Of a stretch of DNA of 64,000 bases, positions 16,122-24,074 are shown one piece after another. The notes beneath the pieces were generated by a model. It saw nothing but the letters and a program-made list of their open reading frames with translations. It did no database searches and was not told where the DNA came from. Positions within the stretch are counted from its first letter, which is position 1; each line of letters begins with the position of its first letter. Source of the DNA: Olivibacter domesticus (GTDB taxonomy: Bacteria; Bacteroidota; Bacteroidia; Sphingobacteriales; Sphingobacteriaceae); NCBI RefSeq assembly GCF_900109575.1, contig NZ_FOAF01000010.1:124001-188000 (forward strand), written 5' to 3'. The position numbers and the translations under genes were made by a program.

Positions 16122-16709
16122 TTATTTGTGATGGCGTTCCTCCAGATTTTTGGCTATTCTTTGAAGAGAGATGTTTTTTTCCTTTAATAATACCATCAAA
16201 TGAAATAATAAATCAGAAGACTCATTGACGAAATCTTTTTCTGTTTCTTTTAAGGCTGCAATAACCGTTTCTACAGCTTCTTCACCCACTTTTTGAGCTA
16301 TCTTATTAATTCCTTTTAGCTTCAACTTGTTTACGTAGGAATCTTCTTTAGGATTAATATATCGATCATCAATGATCTGTTCGAGCTCGAAAATGAAGTT
16401 TTGATTATAGTCCGTTTGAAAACAGCTCCTGGAGCCGGTGTGACAGGTGGGGCCTTGTGGTGAAGCCTTTATTAAAACAGTATCATTATCGCAATCGATG
16501 TCAATACTAACCACATTTAAATAGTTGCCACTTTCCTCCCCTTTTGTCCAAAGTCTGTTTTTTGAACGGGAGAAAAAAGTTACTTTTTTTTCAGACTGGG
16601 TTTTTTCCCAAGCTTCTTCGTTCATATACCCAAGCATGAGTACTTCGAGCGTTTGATGATCTTGGATAATTACAGGTACAAGTCCTGCACCTTTATTAAA
16701 GTCTAACAT
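16122..16709 (-). CDS. hisI: Bifunctional phosphoribosyl-AMP cyclohydrolase/phosphoribosyl-ATP pyrophosphatase
   Basis: The 195-residue HisIE fusion performs steps 2 and 3 of histidine synthesis. The N-terminal HisI domain (about 1-105) has the zinc-site residues in DIDCDNDTVLIKASPQGPTCHTG and SCFQ. The C-terminal HisE domain (about 108-195) is a MazG-like helix bundle with KVGEEAVETVIAAL and ESSDLLFHL, carrying the acidic metal ligands. The fused order is typical of Bacteroidota. It follows hisF by 33 bases and precedes the WD40 gene by 6. Confidence 0.97.
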   Translation of the reverse strand: MLDFNKGAGLVPVIIQDHQTLEVLMLGYMNEEAWEKTQSEKKVTFFSRSKNRLWTKGEESGNYLNVVSIDIDCDNDTVLIKASPQGPTCHTGSRSCFQTDYNQNFIFELEQIIDDRYINPKEDSYVNKLKLKGINKIAQKVGEEAVETVIAALKETEKDFVNESSDLLFHLMVLLKEKNISLQRIAKNLEERHHK

Positions 16710-16742
16710 TCTTGTTTAATTATCGTTCTGCTTTATGTTTTA

Positions 16743-17543
16743 TTATCGAATCTTGATGCCACTCGCCCGCAGTGAATCCTTAAGATCAGGAATCAGTATT
16801 TCACCGTAATGAAAAACGGATGCCGCTAGTGCCGCGTCAACATTGGCCTCTAAGAAGACATCTGTAAAATGCTGCTTACTACCAGCACCACCTGATGCAA
16901 TTAAGGGAATGGTCAGTGATTGATTGATTTTTTTTAGTAAGGTGCAATCGAATCCGTTTTTTGTTCCATCGTGATCCATAGAAGTTAACAGGATTTCACC
17001 AGCACCTCTACTTTCAGCCTCTTTTATCCACTCTTCAGTAAGGATATCCGTTTTTATTCTTCCGCCATTTAAGTGTACGTAATTTTTTCCATCTATGTGC
17101 TTCGTGTCGACCGCTACTACTACGAATTGAATACCAAAAGCATTTGCCAACGTGTTGATGAGAGCTGGATTTTTTACCGCAGCAGAGTTGATGGATATTT
17201 TATCGGCCCCTGAATGAAGTAATATTTCAGCATCTGCAACCTCATGAATTCCACCACCAATAGTAAACGGTATGTTCACATTCCTTGCTACTGCTTTTAC
17301 CATCTCAACGGTTGTCTTGCGTTTTTCATGGGTAGCAGTAATATCTAAAAATACTAATTCATCTGCTCCTTGCGCTGAATATTGCCATGCAAGTTCTACA
17401 GGATCACCGGCATCTCTTAGATCTACAAAGTTTATACCTTTTACTGTGCGGCCATCCTTAACATCCAAACATGGAATAATTCGCTTGGCGACACCAGCAT
17501 TTATATCTGCATTTAGAAGTTGATCAGCGAGCGAAGATTCCAT
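16743..17543 (-). CDS. hisF: Imidazole glycerol phosphate synthase, cyclase subunit
   Basis: HisF takes ammonia from HisH and converts PRFAR to imidazole glycerol phosphate and AICAR. The TIM barrel shows [18 protein letters not shown] with the catalytic Asp, [11 protein letters not shown], and near the end LIASGGAGS plus [11 protein letters not shown]. The only suitable in-frame start is ATG 17543, which lies inside the hisA end, so the ORFs overlap by 31 bases and HisF carries an N-terminal extension of about 18 residues relative to typical HisF. The protein has 266 residues against about 250-258 in the family. Confidence 0.96.
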
Positions 17544-18262
17544 TCTTTTATTTCTTCTATACTTATTCTATTCTCATAAATCGCTTTTCCAACAACACAT
17601 GCTTCGATGCGAAGTTCATCCAGCGCTTTGATGTCTTCTAGAGAACTTATACCTCCTGAAGCAATGAGCTTAATGATAGGGGAGTGATCTAGCAGTTTTT
17701 TATACAGATCAATACCAGCTCCTCCAAGTTTACCATCTTTATTTATATCCGTACATAAAAATCGAAAGAACCCTAAATTTAAACAACGATCAATATAATC
17801 AATGAGTTTAACGGGAGAACTTTCCATCCATCCTGAATATTTTATTACTTCATCAAGTACATCAATAGCAACTACAATATGATCCGAACATTTTATGCCA
17901 TTGCAATATAGACGACTTAGCTCATCTAAAAATTCGGGATTAGTAATAGCTTGTGTGCCCACGATGACCCGATGTACTCCTGCATCGATTAATTCTTTTA
18001 CTTTCTCAATACTCCGTACGCCACCACCATACTGTACTTTCATGTCAGTTTTTTGAATGATGTTGAATAGGTATTGTTGATTTGTAAAATCACCCTTAGC
18101 TCCATTCAGGTCGATGATATGCACGAATTCCGTACCATTTGATTGATACTTTTCTATCATTTCCTCTAAATTGATATCATAGGTTGTCACCTCGTCGTAT
18201 TTTCCTTCTCGAAGGCGGACTACCTGTTTATCTAATATATCTATTGCTGGAATAATATACAT
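17513..18262 (-). CDS. hisA: ProFAR isomerase (1-(5-phosphoribosyl)-5-[(phosphoribosylamino)methylideneamino]imidazole-4-carboxamide isomerase)
   Basis: This 249-residue TIM-barrel enzyme carries out the Amadori rearrangement before the HisHF step. The start [22 protein letters not shown] holds the catalytic Asp8, and the opposite half has [16 protein letters not shown] with the second catalytic Asp. Phosphate-binding loops are YGGGVRS and IASGGISS. The HisA/HisF pair shares the duplicated half-barrel pattern. It follows hisH by 15 bases and overlaps hisF by 31 bases. Confidence 0.97.
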
Positions 18263-18277
18263 GATTTTATATTTGAA

Positions 18278-18868
18278 TTAGATTGTACAAAAGTTTTTTA
18301 ATAATTGTTCCCCTGCTTTGCCAGATTTTTCCGGATGAAACTGGACGCCATAAAAATTATTATACTGTATTGCCGAAGAATATTTTATACCATAATCAGT
18401 ATAAGCAAGTGTAAAAGTAGGATTATATTCTATAAAATAAGAATGGACAAAATAAAAGTAGGCATCTTTTTCAATGTTTTGAAAGAGTTTGCTGTTCTGC
18501 ATAGGGGACACTTTATTCCACCCCATGTGTGGGACTTTTAAGTTTACGCGATTAGCAAAATGGAGTGTTTCTATATCCATTACATTCAGTAAATGGGCAT
18601 CACCTTCTTCAGAATGACGCGTTAAGAGTTGCATGCCAACACAAATGCCGAGCACAGGCTTTTCTAGCTTTTTTATGCTGCTTGTGAGGCCCGTGGCTTT
18701 TAATTTTTGCATGGCCGCGCCGGCATGGCCAACACCTGGTATAATAATATGGCTGTAATTCTCCATGTCACCCTCCTCATTAATCATAGCATATTCTATT
18801 CCAATACGATCTAAAGCAGCGGTTAACGAAAAAATATTTCCAGCTCCGTAATTTATAATTCCAATCAT
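18278..18868 (-). CDS. hisH: Imidazole glycerol phosphate synthase, glutamine amidotransferase subunit
   Basis: The 196-residue class I amidotransferase supplies ammonia to HisF. The nucleophile Cys lies in PVLGICVGMQLL (about residue 76), the catalytic His-Glu pair in VQFHPEKSG near the C-terminus, and the N-terminal INYGAGNIFS starts the fold. Length is normal. A 123-base spacer built of 7-bp units separates it from hisB upstream, while hisA follows after 15 bases. Confidence 0.97.
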   Translation of the reverse strand: MIGIINYGAGNIFSLTAALDRIGIEYAMINEEGDMENYSHIIIPGVGHAGAAMQKLKATGLTSSIKKLEKPVLGICVGMQLLTRHSEEGDAHLLNVMDIETLHFANRVNLKVPHMGWNKVSPMQNSKLFQNIEKDAYFYFVHSYFIEYNPTFTLAYTDYGIKYSSAIQYNNFYGVQFHPEKSGKAGEQLLKNFCTI

Positions 18869-18991
18869 AGGATGTTGTACGTTTTAAGTTATAGGTTCTA
18901 CGTTTTAAGTTTTACGTTGTTGTTTCTAAGTTTTACGTTGCAGGTTCTATACTTTACAACCTATTACTTATCACTTACAACTTATCACTTC
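18869..18991. repeat. Degenerate 7-bp-unit array with internal orientation switch (hisB-hisH spacer)
   Basis: The whole spacer can be cut into consecutive 7-base units without a break. On the plus strand, units up to about 18945 follow a pattern near TTTAAGT, TTTACGT, TCTACGT and TATAGGT. From about 18946 to the hisB stop codon they change to CTTATCA, CTTACAA and CCTATTA, the inverse complement type. The array therefore has two oppositely oriented arms. No start codon with a long frame was found, and it is not CRISPR-like because there are no unique spacers. Confidence 0.75.
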
Positions 18992-20137
18992 CTAGAGTAT
19001 CCCCTTAGTGCTTGGCAATTGCATATTATCCGTATCTCGTTTTACCGCCATTTTTATTGATTTAGCAAAGGCTTTAAAGATCGCTTCAATCTTGTGGTGT
19101 TCATTTTGCCCCTCTGCCTTAATGTTTAAATTGCTTTTGGATGCATCCGAGAAAGATTTAAAAAAATGTATGAACATCTCTGTGGGCATTTCGCCTATTT
19201 TTTCTCTTTTAAATTCAGCATCCCAAACTAACCAGTTCCTACCTCCAAAATCTATCGCGACTTGTGCCAAACAATCGTCCATCGGTAGGCAAAATCCATA
19301 TCTTTCTATGCCCCTTTTATCGCCCAATGCTTTTAACAATGTTTCTCCCAATGCTAAGGCTGTATCTTCAATAGTATGGTGCTCGTCGATATGTAAATCT
19401 CCTTTTGTATGGATCGTTAAATCCATGTTTCCATGTCTGGCAAGCTGATCTAGCATATGATCAAAAAAAGGTATTCCCGTCTCAATATCAGCCTTGCCAC
19501 TCCCATCTAAATTTATCTTAACAAAGATGTCGGTTTCATTGGTAGCTCTCCGGTGCTCAGCCGTACGAGTACCCACTTTTAAGAAGTCATATATTTTCTT
19601 AAATTCAGTGGTTGACAATGCAACTACATCTTCATTTATAGAAAGGTTTTCCATTAATCCTAAAGAATCATCATTACGCAACCAGATAGCCTTAGCACCA
19701 AGATTTTGTGCTAGTCGAACGTCATTAACACGGTCGCCGATCACATAAGAATTTGTGAGATCATACTTTTCAGTGTCAAAATATTCACTAAGCATCCCAA
19801 TTCCAGGTTTTCTGGTGTCAGCATTTTCATGGGGAAAAGTACGATCTATGTGTTCTTTTATAAAATGTACTCCCTCGCCAGCAAAGGTGTCTATGACAAA
19901 ATTGTGAACTGGCCAAAAGTTTTCTTCTGGATGACTGTCGGTTCCAAGGCCATCTTGATTGCTTACCAACACTAAATCAAAGTCGAGCTCTTTTGCAATT
20001 TTAGGCATGTATTGTAAGGCTCCGGGATAAAATTTTAATTTTGAAAAGGAGTCAATTTGTTCGTCCGCCGGTTCGAGAATTAAGGTGCCATCACGATCGA
20101 TGAACAATAAACGCTTTTTATAAGTCTTTTTTAACAT
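18992..20137 (-). CDS. hisB: Bifunctional histidinol-phosphatase/imidazoleglycerol-phosphate dehydratase
   Basis: The 381-residue protein joins two pathway steps. The N-terminal HAD-type phosphatase (about residues 1-165) has [11 protein letters not shown] with the nucleophile Asp, [10 protein letters not shown], and [12 protein letters not shown]. The C-terminal IGP dehydratase (about 185-381) has [13 protein letters not shown], the metal-binding [14 protein letters not shown] and [17 protein letters not shown]. This fusion is known from enterobacteria and most Bacteroidota. It follows hisC after 119 bases, a spacer in which no clear signal was recognised. Confidence 0.97.
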
Positions 20138-20256
20138 AAAGCTAAATTCAATTCTAAATAGGATATCAGATTAAAAAAACGATCATTTTGCAAAGTTACG
20201 AGTAATTTGTTAATGTTACTTGCTCGCTGTTTTATCTGGAAAATGATCCTCTTCAC

Positions 20257-21312
20257 TTAAATTTTTTGATAGTTCTGAAGAGCGGCTAACAATTCCTTGT
20301 TCTCTTCTGGTGTTCCAACTGTTATCCGTAAGCAGTTCTCGCATAAGATAACTGAAGAACGATCACGTACAATAATCCCTAATTCAACCAAATAGTTGTA
20401 GATATCCTTGGGGTTGCTTGCTTTCATCAATAAAAAGTTGGCATCTGAAGGGTATACCTGTTGTACGAAGGGAAGCGCTAGCAGCATCTTGTCTAGTAAC
20501 TCACGTTCCTTGACGGTTTCTTTAATCCAATTGTTTACTTTATCAATATTCTCAAGTGCCTCTAACGCTAATATCTGAGATGCTTCATTAATATTGTAAG
20601 GGGGTTTAATTTTGTTGAATATATCGATAATTTCGGGAGAAGCAAATGCCATTCCGATACGCAAACCTGCTAAACCCCATGCTTTGGAAAGGGTTTGTAA
20701 AACAACTAAATTGTTATATTCAAGTAGTTCCTGTATAAATGATCGCTGCTTAGAAAAATTTATATAGGCCTCATCCACAATCACTAAACCATTAAAATTA
20801 CTCAATACCGTCTCTATGTCGTCTCTATTAATGGAATTTCCGGTCGGGTTGTTAGGCGAGCATATGAAGATTATTTTTGTTTTTTCATCTATAGCTTCCG
20901 CGATTCCCTCTAAATTTAACTGAAAAGCTGGTGTTAGATTCACCCTCTTTATCGCTATATCGTTAATATTCGCCGAGACTTCATACATGCCGTATGTTGG
21001 AGGCACAATGATAACATTATCAATACCAGGTTTGCAAAATGCTCTAAATAAGATGTCAATCGCTTCATCGCTACCATTACCCAGAAAGATGCTATTGGTT
21101 GGAACACCTTTTATTTGACTTATTTTACTTTTTAGCTTAAGTTGTAGTGGGTCAGGGTACCGATTATAATTCGAAGCTAAAGGAGATCCAAAAGCGTTTT
21201 CATTTGCATCTAAAAGTATAGCTGCTTCTCCTTTAAACTCGTCTCGTGCGGACGAGTAGGGGACGAGTTTCTTTATATTTTCCCTTAACAGGTTGTTGAT
21301 ATTTATATTCAT
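20257..21312 (-). CDS. hisC: Histidinol-phosphate aminotransferase
   Basis: This 351-residue class I/II PLP aminotransferase converts imidazole acetol phosphate and glutamate to histidinol phosphate. The PLP Schiff-base lysine is Lys210 in LSKAWGLAGLRIG. Other cofactor contacts are LGNGSDEAID, CSPNNPTGN and VIVDEAYINF, and the C-terminal LRITVGTPEEN supplies the carboxylate-binding Arg. Length and motif order are standard. It follows hisD after 64 bases. Confidence 0.97.
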   Translation of the reverse strand: MNININNLLRENIKKLVPYSSARDEFKGEAAILLDANENAFGSPLASNYNRYPDPLQLKLKSKISQIKGVPTNSIFLGNGSDEAIDILFRAFCKPGIDNVIIVPPTYGMYEVSANINDIAIKRVNLTPAFQLNLEGIAEAIDEKTKIIFICSPNNPTGNSINRDDIETVLSNFNGLVIVDEAYINFSKQRSFIQELLEYNNLVVLQTLSKAWGLAGLRIGMAFASPEIIDIFNKIKPPYNINEASQILALEALENIDKVNNWIKETVKERELLDKMLLALPFVQQVYPSDANFLLMKASNPKDIYNYLVELGIIVRDRSSVILCENCLRITVGTPEENKELLAALQNYQKI

Positions 21313-21376
21313 TTTATTAATCAGCTTTTATCGCTTACTAAGTATCGCCCCCAATTATTTGAGAGCCCTCTTAGAC

Positions 21377-22681
21377 TTAGCGATTTTTTTTAGTACCATT
21401 CATTCTCACCGTAACAGCATTTTTATGCGCTTGAAGGCCTTCAAGTGCGGCTAAAGTCTCTACCGTATGACCAATTTGTTGCAGCCCTTCTTCTGTTATA
21501 TGCTGGAAAGTTATTTTTTTTATGAAAGAATCAACAGACACTCCCGAGTACGATCTTGCGAAGGCACTGGTAGGTAAGGTATGATTCGTTCCTGAAGCAT
21601 AATCGCCGACGCTTTCGGGTGTTAAGTGCCCTAAAAATACCGACCCTGCATTTATTATTTTATTGGTCAACTCCTGCCAGTTGTCTGTAGAAATAATCAA
21701 ATGTTCAGGTGCGTATTGATTGCTGAAATACATGGCTTCCGATAAGTCCTCACATAAAACTGCGTAAGAATTATTGATCGCTGCTAGGGCGATTTCTTTT
21801 CGTGGAAGCTCGTTTACTTGTTTAATTAAGGCCTCTTTTACATTGCTAAGCAACTGTTGGCTATCAGTAACTAATATTGCTTGACTATCTACTCCATGTT
21901 CGGCTTGTGCAAGTAAATCAGCAGCGACGAAGTCGGGATTACTTGTGCTGTCGGCAATTATCAACACTTCAGACGGGCCAGCGGGCATGTCAATGGCTGT
22001 TTGGGTGGTAGATTGTATAATAGTTTTTGCTTTAGTGACATACTGATTTCCCGGGCCAAAAATTTTATCCACTTTCGTGACGCTTTCGGTACCATAAGCC
22101 ATTGCTGCAATAGCCTGCGCCCCACCTACAAGAAAAATTCGTTTTATTTTCAATAAATAAGCACAATAGGCAAGGTACCCGTTTATCTGTCCGTTTGCCT
22201 GTGGCGGGGAGCATACCACTATTTCCTTGCAACCCGCAATACGAGCAGGGATACCAAGCATCAGAAAGGTGCTAGGCAAAACGGCCGTTCCGCCAGGTAT
22301 ATATAAACCTACGCGCTCGATCGGCCTTGGTTCTCTCCAGCAAGTAACGCCTGGCATAGTGTCTATTTTCTTCTCTTTTCTTAACTGGTACTGATGAAAT
22401 TTATGAATATTATTGAAAGCGATTTCGAGTGCCCGTTGCTGTTCTCTGCCAATACTCATTGCAAGCGTGTTTATTTCATCTTCTTCTAAAAACAACTTGC
22501 TTAATTTTATACGATCAAACTTCTCCGCATATTCAATGAGGGCCTTATCTCCTTCAGATTTTACTTGCTGAATAATAGACGCTACCGTTTCTTGAATATC
22601 ATTGGCAGGGTCTGTATTGCGCGTTATCAACTTTTCTAAATCCTCGCCAGAAAGTTCTTTATATCTGTAAGTTTTTAACAT
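21377..22681 (-). CDS. hisD: Histidinol dehydrogenase
   Basis: The 434-residue zinc enzyme oxidises histidinol to histidine in two NAD-dependent steps. Signatures include ERVGLYIPGGTAVLPST, the IDMPAGPSEVLIIAD segment, DLLAQAEHGVDSQ with zinc-ligand Gln/His, and NQYAPEHLII with the catalytic Glu-His pair. A C-terminal HKNAVTVR completes the family pattern. It is separated from hisG by a 129-base spacer that contains a second array of 7-bp units. Confidence 0.97.
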   Translation of the reverse strand: MLKTYRYKELSGEDLEKLITRNTDPANDIQETVASIIQQVKSEGDKALIEYAEKFDRIKLSKLFLEEDEINTLAMSIGREQQRALEIAFNNIHKFHQYQLRKEKKIDTMPGVTCWREPRPIERVGLYIPGGTAVLPSTFLMLGIPARIAGCKEIVVCSPPQANGQINGYLAYCAYLLKIKRIFLVGGAQAIAAMAYGTESVTKVDKIFGPGNQYVTKAKTIIQSTTQTAIDMPAGPSEVLIIADSTSNPDFVAADLLAQAEHGVDSQAILVTDSQQLLSNVKEALIKQVNELPRKEIALAAINNSYAVLCEDLSEAMYFSNQYAPEHLIISTDNWQELTNKIINAGSVFLGHLTPESVGDYASGTNHTLPTSAFARSYSGVSVDSFIKKITFQHITEEGLQQIGHTVETLAALEGLQAHKNAVTVRMNGTKKNR

Positions 22682-22700
22682 GTTAATAGTGTATTAAATG

Positions 22701-22808
22701 TCTCGTATCAAGATGTCAGTATCAGGTATCAAGATTTTCGCATTTAAAATGATATTCAATTGTCTTTGTTATATCTGCGTCTTGATTCTTGTATCTTATA
22801 CCTTGCGT
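22701..22808. repeat. Second 7-bp-unit array with opposed arms (hisG-hisD spacer)
   Basis: On the plus strand, 7-base units at 22701-22742 (TCAAGAT, GTCAGTA, TCAGGTA, TCAAGAT) are answered at 22767-22808 by units of the opposite sense (CTTGATT, CTTGTAT, CTTATAC, CTTGCGT). About 24 unstructured AT-rich bases lie between. The unit sequence differs from the hisB-hisH array, but period, length and head-to-head layout are the same. Confidence 0.65.
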
Positions 22809-22810
22809 CT

Positions 22811-23662
22811 TTATATAATAACCTTTTCAACGGGCATTACAACAATTCCTTGCGCGCCAGCAGCTTTTAACTTGTTAATTTTCTCCCAAAAATCGCGCTC
22901 CTGTATAACGGTATGAACGGCAACCCAGTTGTGTTCTGCTAAGGGTACAACGGTGGGACTTTTGACGCCAGGTAACAACGATAAGATAGTGTCTAAATTA
23001 GTACGATCAACATTCAAAACAACATACTTTGTCTCTTTTGCCATCAGCACCGACTGTATGCGTTGCATGAGCTCTTTTATGATTCCGTTATGTTCGATAC
23101 CATTTTTAGAGATCAAAATGGCTTCAGAGGCAAGCACATCAGCAAATGGCTTTAATCCATTACTCTTTAACGTTCCTCCTGTAGATACGATATCGCAGAT
23201 GGCATCACTTAATCCCAAACCCGGTGAGATTTCAACAGAACCAGAGATGGTACGAATGGTTGCATTTACCTGGTTTTCCTGCAAGTATTTTTTCAGAATT
23301 ACAGGATAAGATGTAGCTATTGCTTTGCCTTCAAGGTCCTTAATATTTTTAAGTTCGCTCTCGTTTGGTACCGCAATTTTCAACATACATTTTCCAAAAC
23401 CTAAGCGTTGTAAATAATGTACATCTACTTCGGTTTCATTAATGACATTTTCTCCTACGATTCCGATATCTGCAATGCCGTCCTGAACGTATTCAGGAAT
23501 ATCATCATCCCTAAGAAAAAGAATTTCCAGTGGGAAATTAGAGACAGTGGATATAAGGGAACTTTTGTAATTTTCGAAGGTTAAGCCACAATTTTTTAAA
23601 AGTTCGACAGATTTTTCATTTAATCTGCCCGATTTCTGGATGGCAATTTTTAAAGATGACAT
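22811..23662 (-). CDS. hisG: ATP phosphoribosyltransferase, long form
   Basis: HisG joins ATP and PRPP in the first, committed step of histidine synthesis. The 283-residue length shows the long (HisG-L) form, which works without HisZ. The catalytic periplasmic-binding-protein-like domains span residues 1-205 (start LKIAIQKSGRLNEKSVELL, PRPP loop ISGSVEISPGLGLSDAICDIVSTGGT). A C-terminal ACT-like regulatory domain (about 210-283) ends LKAAGAQGIVVMPVEKVI and normally binds histidine for feedback inhibition. It is the first structural gene of the operon, 106 bases after the leader peptide stop. Confidence 0.97.
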   Translation of the reverse strand: MSSLKIAIQKSGRLNEKSVELLKNCGLTFENYKSSLISTVSNFPLEILFLRDDDIPEYVQDGIADIGIVGENVINETEVDVHYLQRLGFGKCMLKIAVPNESELKNIKDLEGKAIATSYPVILKKYLQENQVNATIRTISGSVEISPGLGLSDAICDIVSTGGTLKSNGLKPFADVLASEAILISKNGIEHNGIIKELMQRIQSVLMAKETKYVVLNVDRTNLDTILSLLPGVKSPTVVPLAEHNWVAVHTVIQERDFWEKINKLKAAGAQGIVVMPVEKVII

Positions 23663-23759
23663 CTTGTTTTTTTATATAAGTTCTAGTTTAGCAAGTATTT
23701 ACTAAAATAATTAATACGATTAATAAGAAAATTTGCTGGAGGATGTGCTTCACGTAGAA

Positions 23760-23806
23760 ACATACTAATTACATATCGCCACATGGGCGATGATGAAAAT
23801 GTATGT
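23760..23806 (-). promoter_or_regulatory. Nested hairpin overlapping the his leader, candidate attenuator
   Basis: In the minus-strand transcript ACATAC (23801-23806, within the His codons) can pair with GTATGT (23760-23765, after the leader stop). Inside it ATCGCC (23786-23791) pairs with GGCGAT (23775-23780) around a 5-base loop. Base-pairing is exact for these arms. Competing pairing of the loop ATGTG with a downstream CACAT is also possible. The role in attenuation is inferred. Confidence 0.55.
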
Positions 23807-23828
23807 GATGTGCGAAGACTTTAATCAT
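23769..23828 (-). CDS. hisL: Histidine operon leader peptide
   Basis: A 19-codon frame starts with ATG at 23828 and ends with TAA at 23769-23771, between a consensus promoter and hisG. The peptide reads MIKVFAHHIHFHHRPCGDM: five His within seven residues, a composition expected of a transcription-attenuation leader rather than chance. A ribosome stalled there when charged tRNA-His is scarce would sit on the left arm of a nested hairpin formed by the following mRNA. No classical GC-rich terminator with a U-run was found before hisG, so the exact mechanism is open. Confidence 0.85.
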   Translation of the reverse strand: MIKVFAHHIHFHHRPCGDM

Positions 23829-23860
23829 TGTTGACACTTGTCTTTTTGAATAAGACGTTA

Positions 23861-23891
23861 CAAATATAGGATATGGTTTTTATTTTGCAAA
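23861..23891 (-). promoter_or_regulatory. Consensus promoter of the his operon
   Basis: On the minus strand TTTG (23888-23891), exactly 19 bases, then TATATTTG (23861-23868): a complete match to the Bacteroidota consensus. The predicted start is about 25 bases before the leader peptide ATG. Confidence 0.88.
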
Positions 23892-24074
23892 CAAAAAGAT
23901 GATTTTATTGAAAAATGTTCATGCTAAACTGGTTTTTGTTGTAGCAACGAAATAAAGGATAAATAGACTTGATGCCATAGATGTTTCAAAGATTGTCATT
24001 TATGGTTAATAGTATTGCTTTCATAATACAAATAATGTACATTGGCATGATAAAAACTTCTAGTTTGAGAATGT
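23892..24074. other. Divergent intergenic region before the GH31 gene
   Basis: AT-rich sequence between the his promoter and the GH31 start. No exact TAnnTTTG was found on the plus strand (TAGTTTG at 24061-24067 is one base short), so the GH31 promoter is unresolved. No gene is seen. Confidence 0.4.

Follow-up and report, generated by a model that had tools for sequence, protein, structure and literature searches.

A histidine-rich leader peptide and competing RNA pairings upstream of the his operon in Olivibacter domesticus and other Sphingobacteriaceae

The his leader locus and its conservation

The his operon of Olivibacter domesticus lies on the reverse strand (-) of the window, by which we mean the whole 64,000-nucleotide stretch of DNA that was analysed, and all features described below are on that strand. 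The first gene is hisG (22811..23662, ATG start at 23662), and hisD, hisC, hisB, hisH, hisA, hisF and hisIE make up the remainder of the operon (16122..22681), all gene names having been assigned by reading. Two long spacers inside the operon, 22682-22810 and 18869-18991, resemble short degenerate repeats (AAGATACAAGAATCAAGACG, AAACGTAGAACCTATAAC) by eye. Upstream of hisG, the -33 element TTTG (23891-23888) is followed 19 bases downstream by the -7 element TATATTTG (23868-23861), and we take TTTG-N19-TATATTTG to be a promoter of the Bacteroidota type. The same -7 element, or a close form of it, was seen by eye before many Sphingobacteriaceae his leaders, uncounted. A leader peptide frame of 19 codons then runs from ATG to TAA (23828-23769; MIKVFAHHIHFHHRPCGDM), contains five His in seven codons and ends 106 bases before hisG. 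Both the promoter and this His-rich frame upstream of hisG had been proposed in a sequence-only reading of the same DNA, and their letters and coordinates proved to be correct. When the 412-base intergenic region was shuffled 3000 times with dinucleotides preserved, and any frame of 6-60 amino acids on both strands was considered, five His in seven codons was never obtained (0/3000); the maximum, four His in seven codons, was reached in 21/3000.

The frame was followed through the family Sphingobacteriaceae, where hisG was located in 84 of 101 genomes. The sequence-only reading had named a short frame, or His codons, that fail to persist in relatives as evidence against itself, and the opposite was found: a His-rich frame, taken as at least four His in eight codons, was present upstream of hisG in 82/84 genomes, the two misses being G008 and G067. 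Of the 80 loci in a second set of named records, which overlaps with the first, 79 were long enough to be used and 75 of these contained the leader, and two of the four misses (L096, L097) have a leader beyond the 330 bases scanned; G028 and G068 in the 84-genome set are comparable to these long-spacer cases. At the conserved His positions CAT and CAC were exchanged, as at His12 with 42 CAT and 16 CAC among 64 aligned leaders, which fits selection on the amino acid. The comparison between genomes shows, at the level of sequence, that the His leader is under selection. According to the distance from leader stop to hisG, genomes were called compact (29-88 bases, mostly 58-88) or extended (100-319 bases). 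In genus g5 (L069, L074, L079, L081) the leaders have 10-11 His codons and the H3 hairpin (see below) was not recognised, which is possibly a different solution within the family.

Competing pairings and a predicted ribosome-position switch

Four elements were delineated in the leader RNA. The hairpin H1 (ATCGCC-CATGT-GGCGAT, 23791-23775) has one pair that is A-U for G-C in six sequences. It is enclosed by P2, whose 5' strand ACATAC (23806-23801) lies inside the His codons, with 71% of cells paired, and whose 3' strand GTATGT (23765-23760), past the leader stop, is supported by covariation and a swap test. These two helices are the nested arms of the sequence-only reading (ACATAC 23806-23801 with GTATGT 23765-23760, ATCGCC 23791-23786 with GGCGAT 23780-23775); their pairing was verified, as was the location of the outer left arm within the His codons. 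Two elements, H3 and P0, were missing from that reading. H3 (GTTTC-TACGT-GAAGC, 23761-23747) is a strongly conserved hairpin just past the leader stop. P0 pairs CTTCGC (23817-23812), which covers leader codons 4-6 directly before the His run and shows covariation, with GTGAAG (23753-23748), a strand common to the loop and 3' arm of H3, so that P0 excludes H3. A C run follows H3 in the window (23716-23746) and in relatives, and no pairing that explains it was found.

Covariation was assessed on alignments A1 (61 sequences from the 67 of 82 regions that are shorter than 200 bases) and A2 (64 of 66 references, after removal of duplicates and of eight genomes whose leader start or loop was unusual); its cells count sequences, not events. 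On the 64 aligned sequences, 99% of H3 cells were paired and two-sided changes occurred in four of five pairs, one of which turned from C-G to G-C in 12 sequences. H1 and H3 together had 93.5% of cells paired, compared with 35-56% when the partner was slid by 1-3 columns, and their number of pairs with two-sided changes was matched by 1/500 shuffles. For the rod, i.e., P0, P2 and H1 combined, 79% of cells were paired versus 30-46% when slid. The rod's nine pairs with two-sided changes are not unusual, since 77/500 shuffles reach that number, and the rod slid by -3 beats the true register in this respect (10 pairs versus 9, 56 cells versus 45). Within P0, two-sided changes were found in four of six pairs; one of these, on an H3 loop letter, is A-U for C-G in six sequences, all from one genus, and H3 does not explain this letter. 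RNAalifold on the whole plain alignment recovered H3 alone. The window's own leader folded only moderately better than its shuffles (z -1.85, 11/200 shuffles as good), and the case rests on the comparison between genomes.

A swap of 3' strands between genera, which is less dependent on alignment, was applied to P0, P2 and the long-range helix P1 described below. This and the folding simulations used 74 of the 82 leaders, with short segments leaving 74 for P1, 71 for P0 and 73 for P2, and H3 was identified with a regular expression, which was widened once variants had come to light. Swapped strands paired as well as the own ones in 0/2000 permutations for P0, 0/2000 for P1 and 9/2000 for P2; the reversed-strand controls gave 948/2000, 118/2000 and 358/2000, respectively. 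Own pairing exceeded the mean of other genera in 13/16 genera for P0, 17/17 for P1 and 11/16 for P2. P0 pairing was weak in several genomes of genus g15, where, by eye, the leader codons may instead pair with the 5' arm of H3. Taken across genomes, the sequence comparison shows that the strand GTGAAR has two pairings which exclude each other, H3 on the one hand and P0, which is nested over P2 and H1, on the other. The sequence-only reading had looked to relatives for conserved His codons and covarying stems; the His codons are kept, and the P0, P2, H1 and H3 stems covary.

No Rfam family reached its cut-off at the his leader with gathering or relaxed thresholds; elsewhere in the window Rfam returned one tRNA and six snoRNA-type matches on the other strand, far below cut-offs. 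The H3 letters, searched in the window's own genome with at most one mismatch, gave one exact match, the his leader itself, and two one-mismatch sites. In the same genome the his leader alone was significant with a covariance model of the family (next E 0.217), and one of the one-mismatch sites (C4) recurred as a non-significant model match.

The effect of ribosome position was simulated by keeping the bases under the ribosome unpaired, with an assumed footprint from 13 bases upstream to 15 bases downstream of the P site. Across 63 compact genomes, the expected number of H3 pairs was 0.55 in free RNA, 4.12 when the A site held the first His codon and 0.35 when it held the stop codon, and the corresponding values for P0 were 8.38, 0.59 and 6.73. 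Codon by codon, genus averages favoured H3 over P0 from the leader start to four codons past the first His, were equal five codons past it, and favoured P0 from six codons on, so that the switch, as simulated, records whether the His run has been passed. H3 in these simulations does not depend on His codons in particular, as a ribosome anywhere upstream of them also favours it. In the window, H3 had 1.3-3.2 pairs with the ribosome on codons 7-10 and 12-13 and just 0.24 on codon 11; P0 prevailed on codons 16-18, H3 returned (4.10 pairs) on codon 19, and P0 prevailed again at the stop. Folding thus predicts the broad logic of an attenuator, in which waiting at the first His codons gives H3 and a finished leader gives P0. 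When halted at the first His codons, a ribosome is predicted to cover the 5' strands of P0 and P2 and to let H3 form, and a ribosome at the stop codon would cover the 5' arm of H3, allowing P0 and the rod to form. The H3 state would presumably be "on" and the rod state "off".

Terminators, hisG start codons and the P1 helix

A terminator scan of positions 23600-24074 of the window, made with our own script rather than a published tool, found none. The sequence-only reading had noted that no GC-rich hairpin with a U run precedes hisG; this is true of the window, and among the 84 Sphingobacteriaceae genomes a hairpin with a T tract lies between leader stop and hisG in one only, where it is the H3 of G075. 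When the last 230 nucleotides before hisG were scanned for a GC-rich hairpin plus T tract, 13/84 Sphingobacteriaceae genomes gave a hit, compared with 46/59 other Bacteroidia genomes; given the single hit after the leader stop, the other 12 of the 13 begin before the leader end. The class set comprised 59 of 68 Bacteroidia genomes with hisG, five of the own family, two of family f4 and two with split hisG matches having been excluded, and in the hisG upstream regions of these other families a small frame had at least three His in eight codons in 52/59 and at least four in 43/59. A terminator-less architecture shared by all Bacteroidia his leaders was considered and rejected, because 46/59 of the other-family genomes have a terminator.

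The start codon of hisG also differs. Among the 84 Sphingobacteriaceae it is TTG in 55, GTG in 11 and ATG in 16, with two ambiguous, whereas ATG is used in 54/59 genomes of other Bacteroidia families. The ATG starts within the family belong to extended genomes (five g1 genomes, six of the nine in g4 and four in g5) and to one compact genome of g13. The family covariance model matched 33 of 395 genomes of the phylum, namely 11 Sphingobacteriaceae and 22 weak matches elsewhere. Of the 19 outside loci that were read, 16 have hisG downstream, all in one genus of family f4, and in these 16 a His leader is followed by a strong terminator, as judged by eye. The window's own genome keeps terminators in its trp and pheA leaders (by eye) and in a thrA-like leader (by scan). 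These terminator-bearing trp, phe and thr leaders serve as internal controls.

In 61 compact genomes from 16 genera, the covarying helix P1 joins the stretch before the leader ATG with the stretch before hisG. A first scan over whole flanks gave mixed duplexes (mean own pairing -13.4, foreign -9.7 kcal/mol), and genus-level swaps and windows were therefore used instead. For the 3' strand, own minus foreign pairing peaked in the interval -28..-9 relative to the hisG start (-4.4 kcal/mol, 16/16 genera), with values close to zero downstream of it and beyond -40. For the 5' strand the peak lay at -20..-5 of the leader ATG (-3.6 kcal/mol, 16/16 genera), with a slow decay, so that windows inside the leader still gave -0.4 to -2 kcal/mol. 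P1 was not seen in a coarser scan of 39 Bacteroidia genomes from 23 other families (-0.6 to +0.65); these were the 39 of the 59 class genomes that had a leader with at least three His in eight codons and an ATG start, a terminator not being required.

P1 is compatible with H3, and at equilibrium a ribosome placed at the first His leaves it nearly unaltered (10.46 pairs without and 9.32 with the ribosome). In the opening-energy simulation, freeing the hisG start became cheaper by more than 0.5 kcal/mol in just 12 of 63 compact genomes and costlier in six; the simplest model, sequestration of the hisG start, received no support from it. Initiation in Bacteroidota proceeds without a Shine-Dalgarno sequence and is tuned by mRNA structure (PMC6847099). 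Together with such structure-dependent initiation, the position of P1 over the initiation stretch suggests gated translation of both hisG and the leader.

The window belongs to a lineage in which this arrangement differs. In Olivibacter (genus g1) and in the majority of g4 genomes, hisG begins with an ATG further downstream. A candidate P1 5' strand CAAGTGT (23840-23834) can form a duplex with ATACTTG (23698-23692), which covers a TTG, perhaps the start codon that hisG once had, and this duplex is unsupported in the window genome, where 4/10 swapped partners pair equally well. P1 was likewise unsupported as a group in the 11 extended genomes that carry H3, among them those of the window's genus (best window 7/10), and in two of these 11, G052 and G028, the own P1 beats all ten swapped partners. 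For the window, the sensor is well supported and a P1-type output is a candidate, Rho being a fair alternative there. The sensor of this lineage appears intact, with hisG starting further downstream. Six extended g4 loci (L005, L006, L007, L009, L014, L034) show by eye a compact-like TTGAA, behind which come additional sequence and a new ATG start; their spacers look as if the hisG start had been displaced, and the TTG opens a short frame in some.

Read-out of the leader and relation to known systems

Considering these results, we think it rather probable that the locus is a his operon leader-peptide attenuator which lost its terminator and which is read out by translation in the compact form. 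In that form, taken as ancestral in the family, the rod would close together with P1 across the ribosome-binding stretch of hisG, and the read-out would be hisG translation, with polarity later, in place of an intrinsic terminator. The lost support of P0 and the bulk of a stalled ribosome may slow the closure of P1 while 30S subunits bind hisG. More tentatively, and with somewhat more doubt than belief, we suggest that the ancestor of the Sphingobacteriaceae changed the output of its his attenuator from termination to translation, with the terminator lost, a weak TTG or GTG start at hisG, and a long-range helix joining both initiation regions so that one switch gates both frames; Olivibacter and Parapedobacter would later have moved the hisG start away and must use another output. 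The sequence-only reading had supposed a His-sensing device whose readout may be non-classical, for example by way of Rho or translation, and leader conservation, stem covariation and the absence of a terminator all speak for it.

The same sensor could also be read by Rho, the rod state leaving a C-rich, G-poor spacer free of ribosomes so that Rho terminates before or early in hisG. The spacer after H3 has a mean C of 0.162 and G of 0.097, a run of at least three C occurs within 30 bases after H3 in 33/74 genomes where shuffles lead one to expect 7.3, and Rho would fit extended genomes such as that of the window, where P1 is away from the hisG start; we nevertheless regard it as unlikely. Compact genomes offer a mere 29-88 bases, mostly 58-88, between the leader stop and hisG, which is short for a Rho site, and the position of P1 and the TTG/GTG starts would be left unexplained. 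Alternatively, the rod (P0, P2 and H1), with a T-rich tract behind it, might itself act as a weak intrinsic terminator. For this, genera g14 and g21, with an average of 5.8 T in the eight bases past H3, and the 14/74 genomes with at least six T there could be cited. With averages of 1.2 T in g1, the genus of the window, and 0.6 T in g15, and no terminator-like site in the window at 23600-24074, we hold this to be improbable.

It is very improbable, in our judgement, that the leader is a conserved RNA bound by a protein or tRNA in which the small frame merely boosts expression. The H3 loop UAC is kept in most aligned sequences, by eye, and no pairing explains it, and a reinitiation role for leader genes has been put forward (PMC4833913). 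The His codons, however, are kept with synonymous exchange, and the leader lies 106 bases from hisG, far from the peak of 11-14 bp given for the distance between leader and gene in Bacteroidetes (PMC4833913). A functionless chance frame has practically no likelihood, given 0/3000 shuffles and a leader in 82/84 relatives, and no point was found in its favour.

In the enterobacterial his attenuator (the His leader of Rfam), a His-run leader and competing pairings set by the ribosome are followed by a terminator before hisG. The present leader is similar in having a His run before hisG and competing pairings set, in simulation, by ribosome position, but that of the window has no terminator, its hairpins are different and it has no Rfam match. 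Leader-peptide attenuation in Bacteroidota is already known. For Flavobacterium psychrophilum, PMC9723704 describes strong clues for attenuation upstream of amino-acid operons and, ahead of hisG, a structured 5' element that matches nothing in Rfam; long 5' UTRs of Bacteroides contain short frames reminiscent of leader peptides, according to PMC7366714, and Bacteroid-trp appears in Rfam (PMC2864571). Other Bacteroidia his leaders share the His-rich frame before hisG and differ from the leaders studied here in their terminator (46/59), ATG start (54/59) and P1 (none of 39). Bacteroid-trp (RF01692) is likewise a leader-peptide RNA of Bacteroidota, and the window's genome has one elsewhere at 53.1 bits, above the gathering score; unlike the his leader, it has Trp codons, a terminator follows in the copy of this genome (by eye), and its covariance model found no match at the his leader.

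Translational attenuation by leader peptides is also known from erm-type systems, which sense a drug. A leader frame, alternative structures and the absence of a terminator are common to these, to the Actinobacteria leaders and to the present case, terminator-less amino-acid leaders having been discussed for Actinobacteria (PMC1262725). In contrast to the erm type, the his leader would sense histidine supply rather than a drug, and a long helix between both start regions is seen, in compact relatives alone. Among the literature matches listed, which leave subscription journals mostly uncovered and are weak evidence, no title or abstract named a terminator-less his leader in Sphingobacteriaceae.

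If the preferred reading of a translational output is correct, the his leaders would be a natural case of the same amino-acid sensor with two outputs in one phylum, in bacteria that initiate without Shine-Dalgarno sequences. Terminator, start codon and P1 differ together between Sphingobacteriaceae and the rest of the class, and the change of read-out could therefore be placed on the tree and tested with small reporters.

Other amino-acid leaders were met in passing. In the window's genome, a Bacteroid-trp leader precedes a trpD-like gene (G000:C12:126254-126379) and a Phe-rich leader (MKYTAAYWFFGYFYFSSKGRD) precedes pheA (G000:C10 near 9445), each with a strong terminator by eye. In family f11, non-his matches of model R1 lie before a ThrA-like gene, named by reading (L198 1501-1600 in G324, and L272 in G332); the leader frame has Thr and Met codons and a hairpin of similar letters (TCTACGCGA, TTCTACGTGA), and the terminator scan found none in the thrA-like leader of G324 and a weak candidate in that of G332. 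Among ThrA-like upstream regions L271-L293, 21 of 23 of which were read, a terminator was seen in 3/3 Sphingobacteriaceae and just 2/18 others, so that the thrA leaders seem to show the reverse of the his-leader pattern. In six of the 18 thrA leaders from other families, the leader ends, by eye, in a hairpin of the form ACCC(C)...GGGGT.
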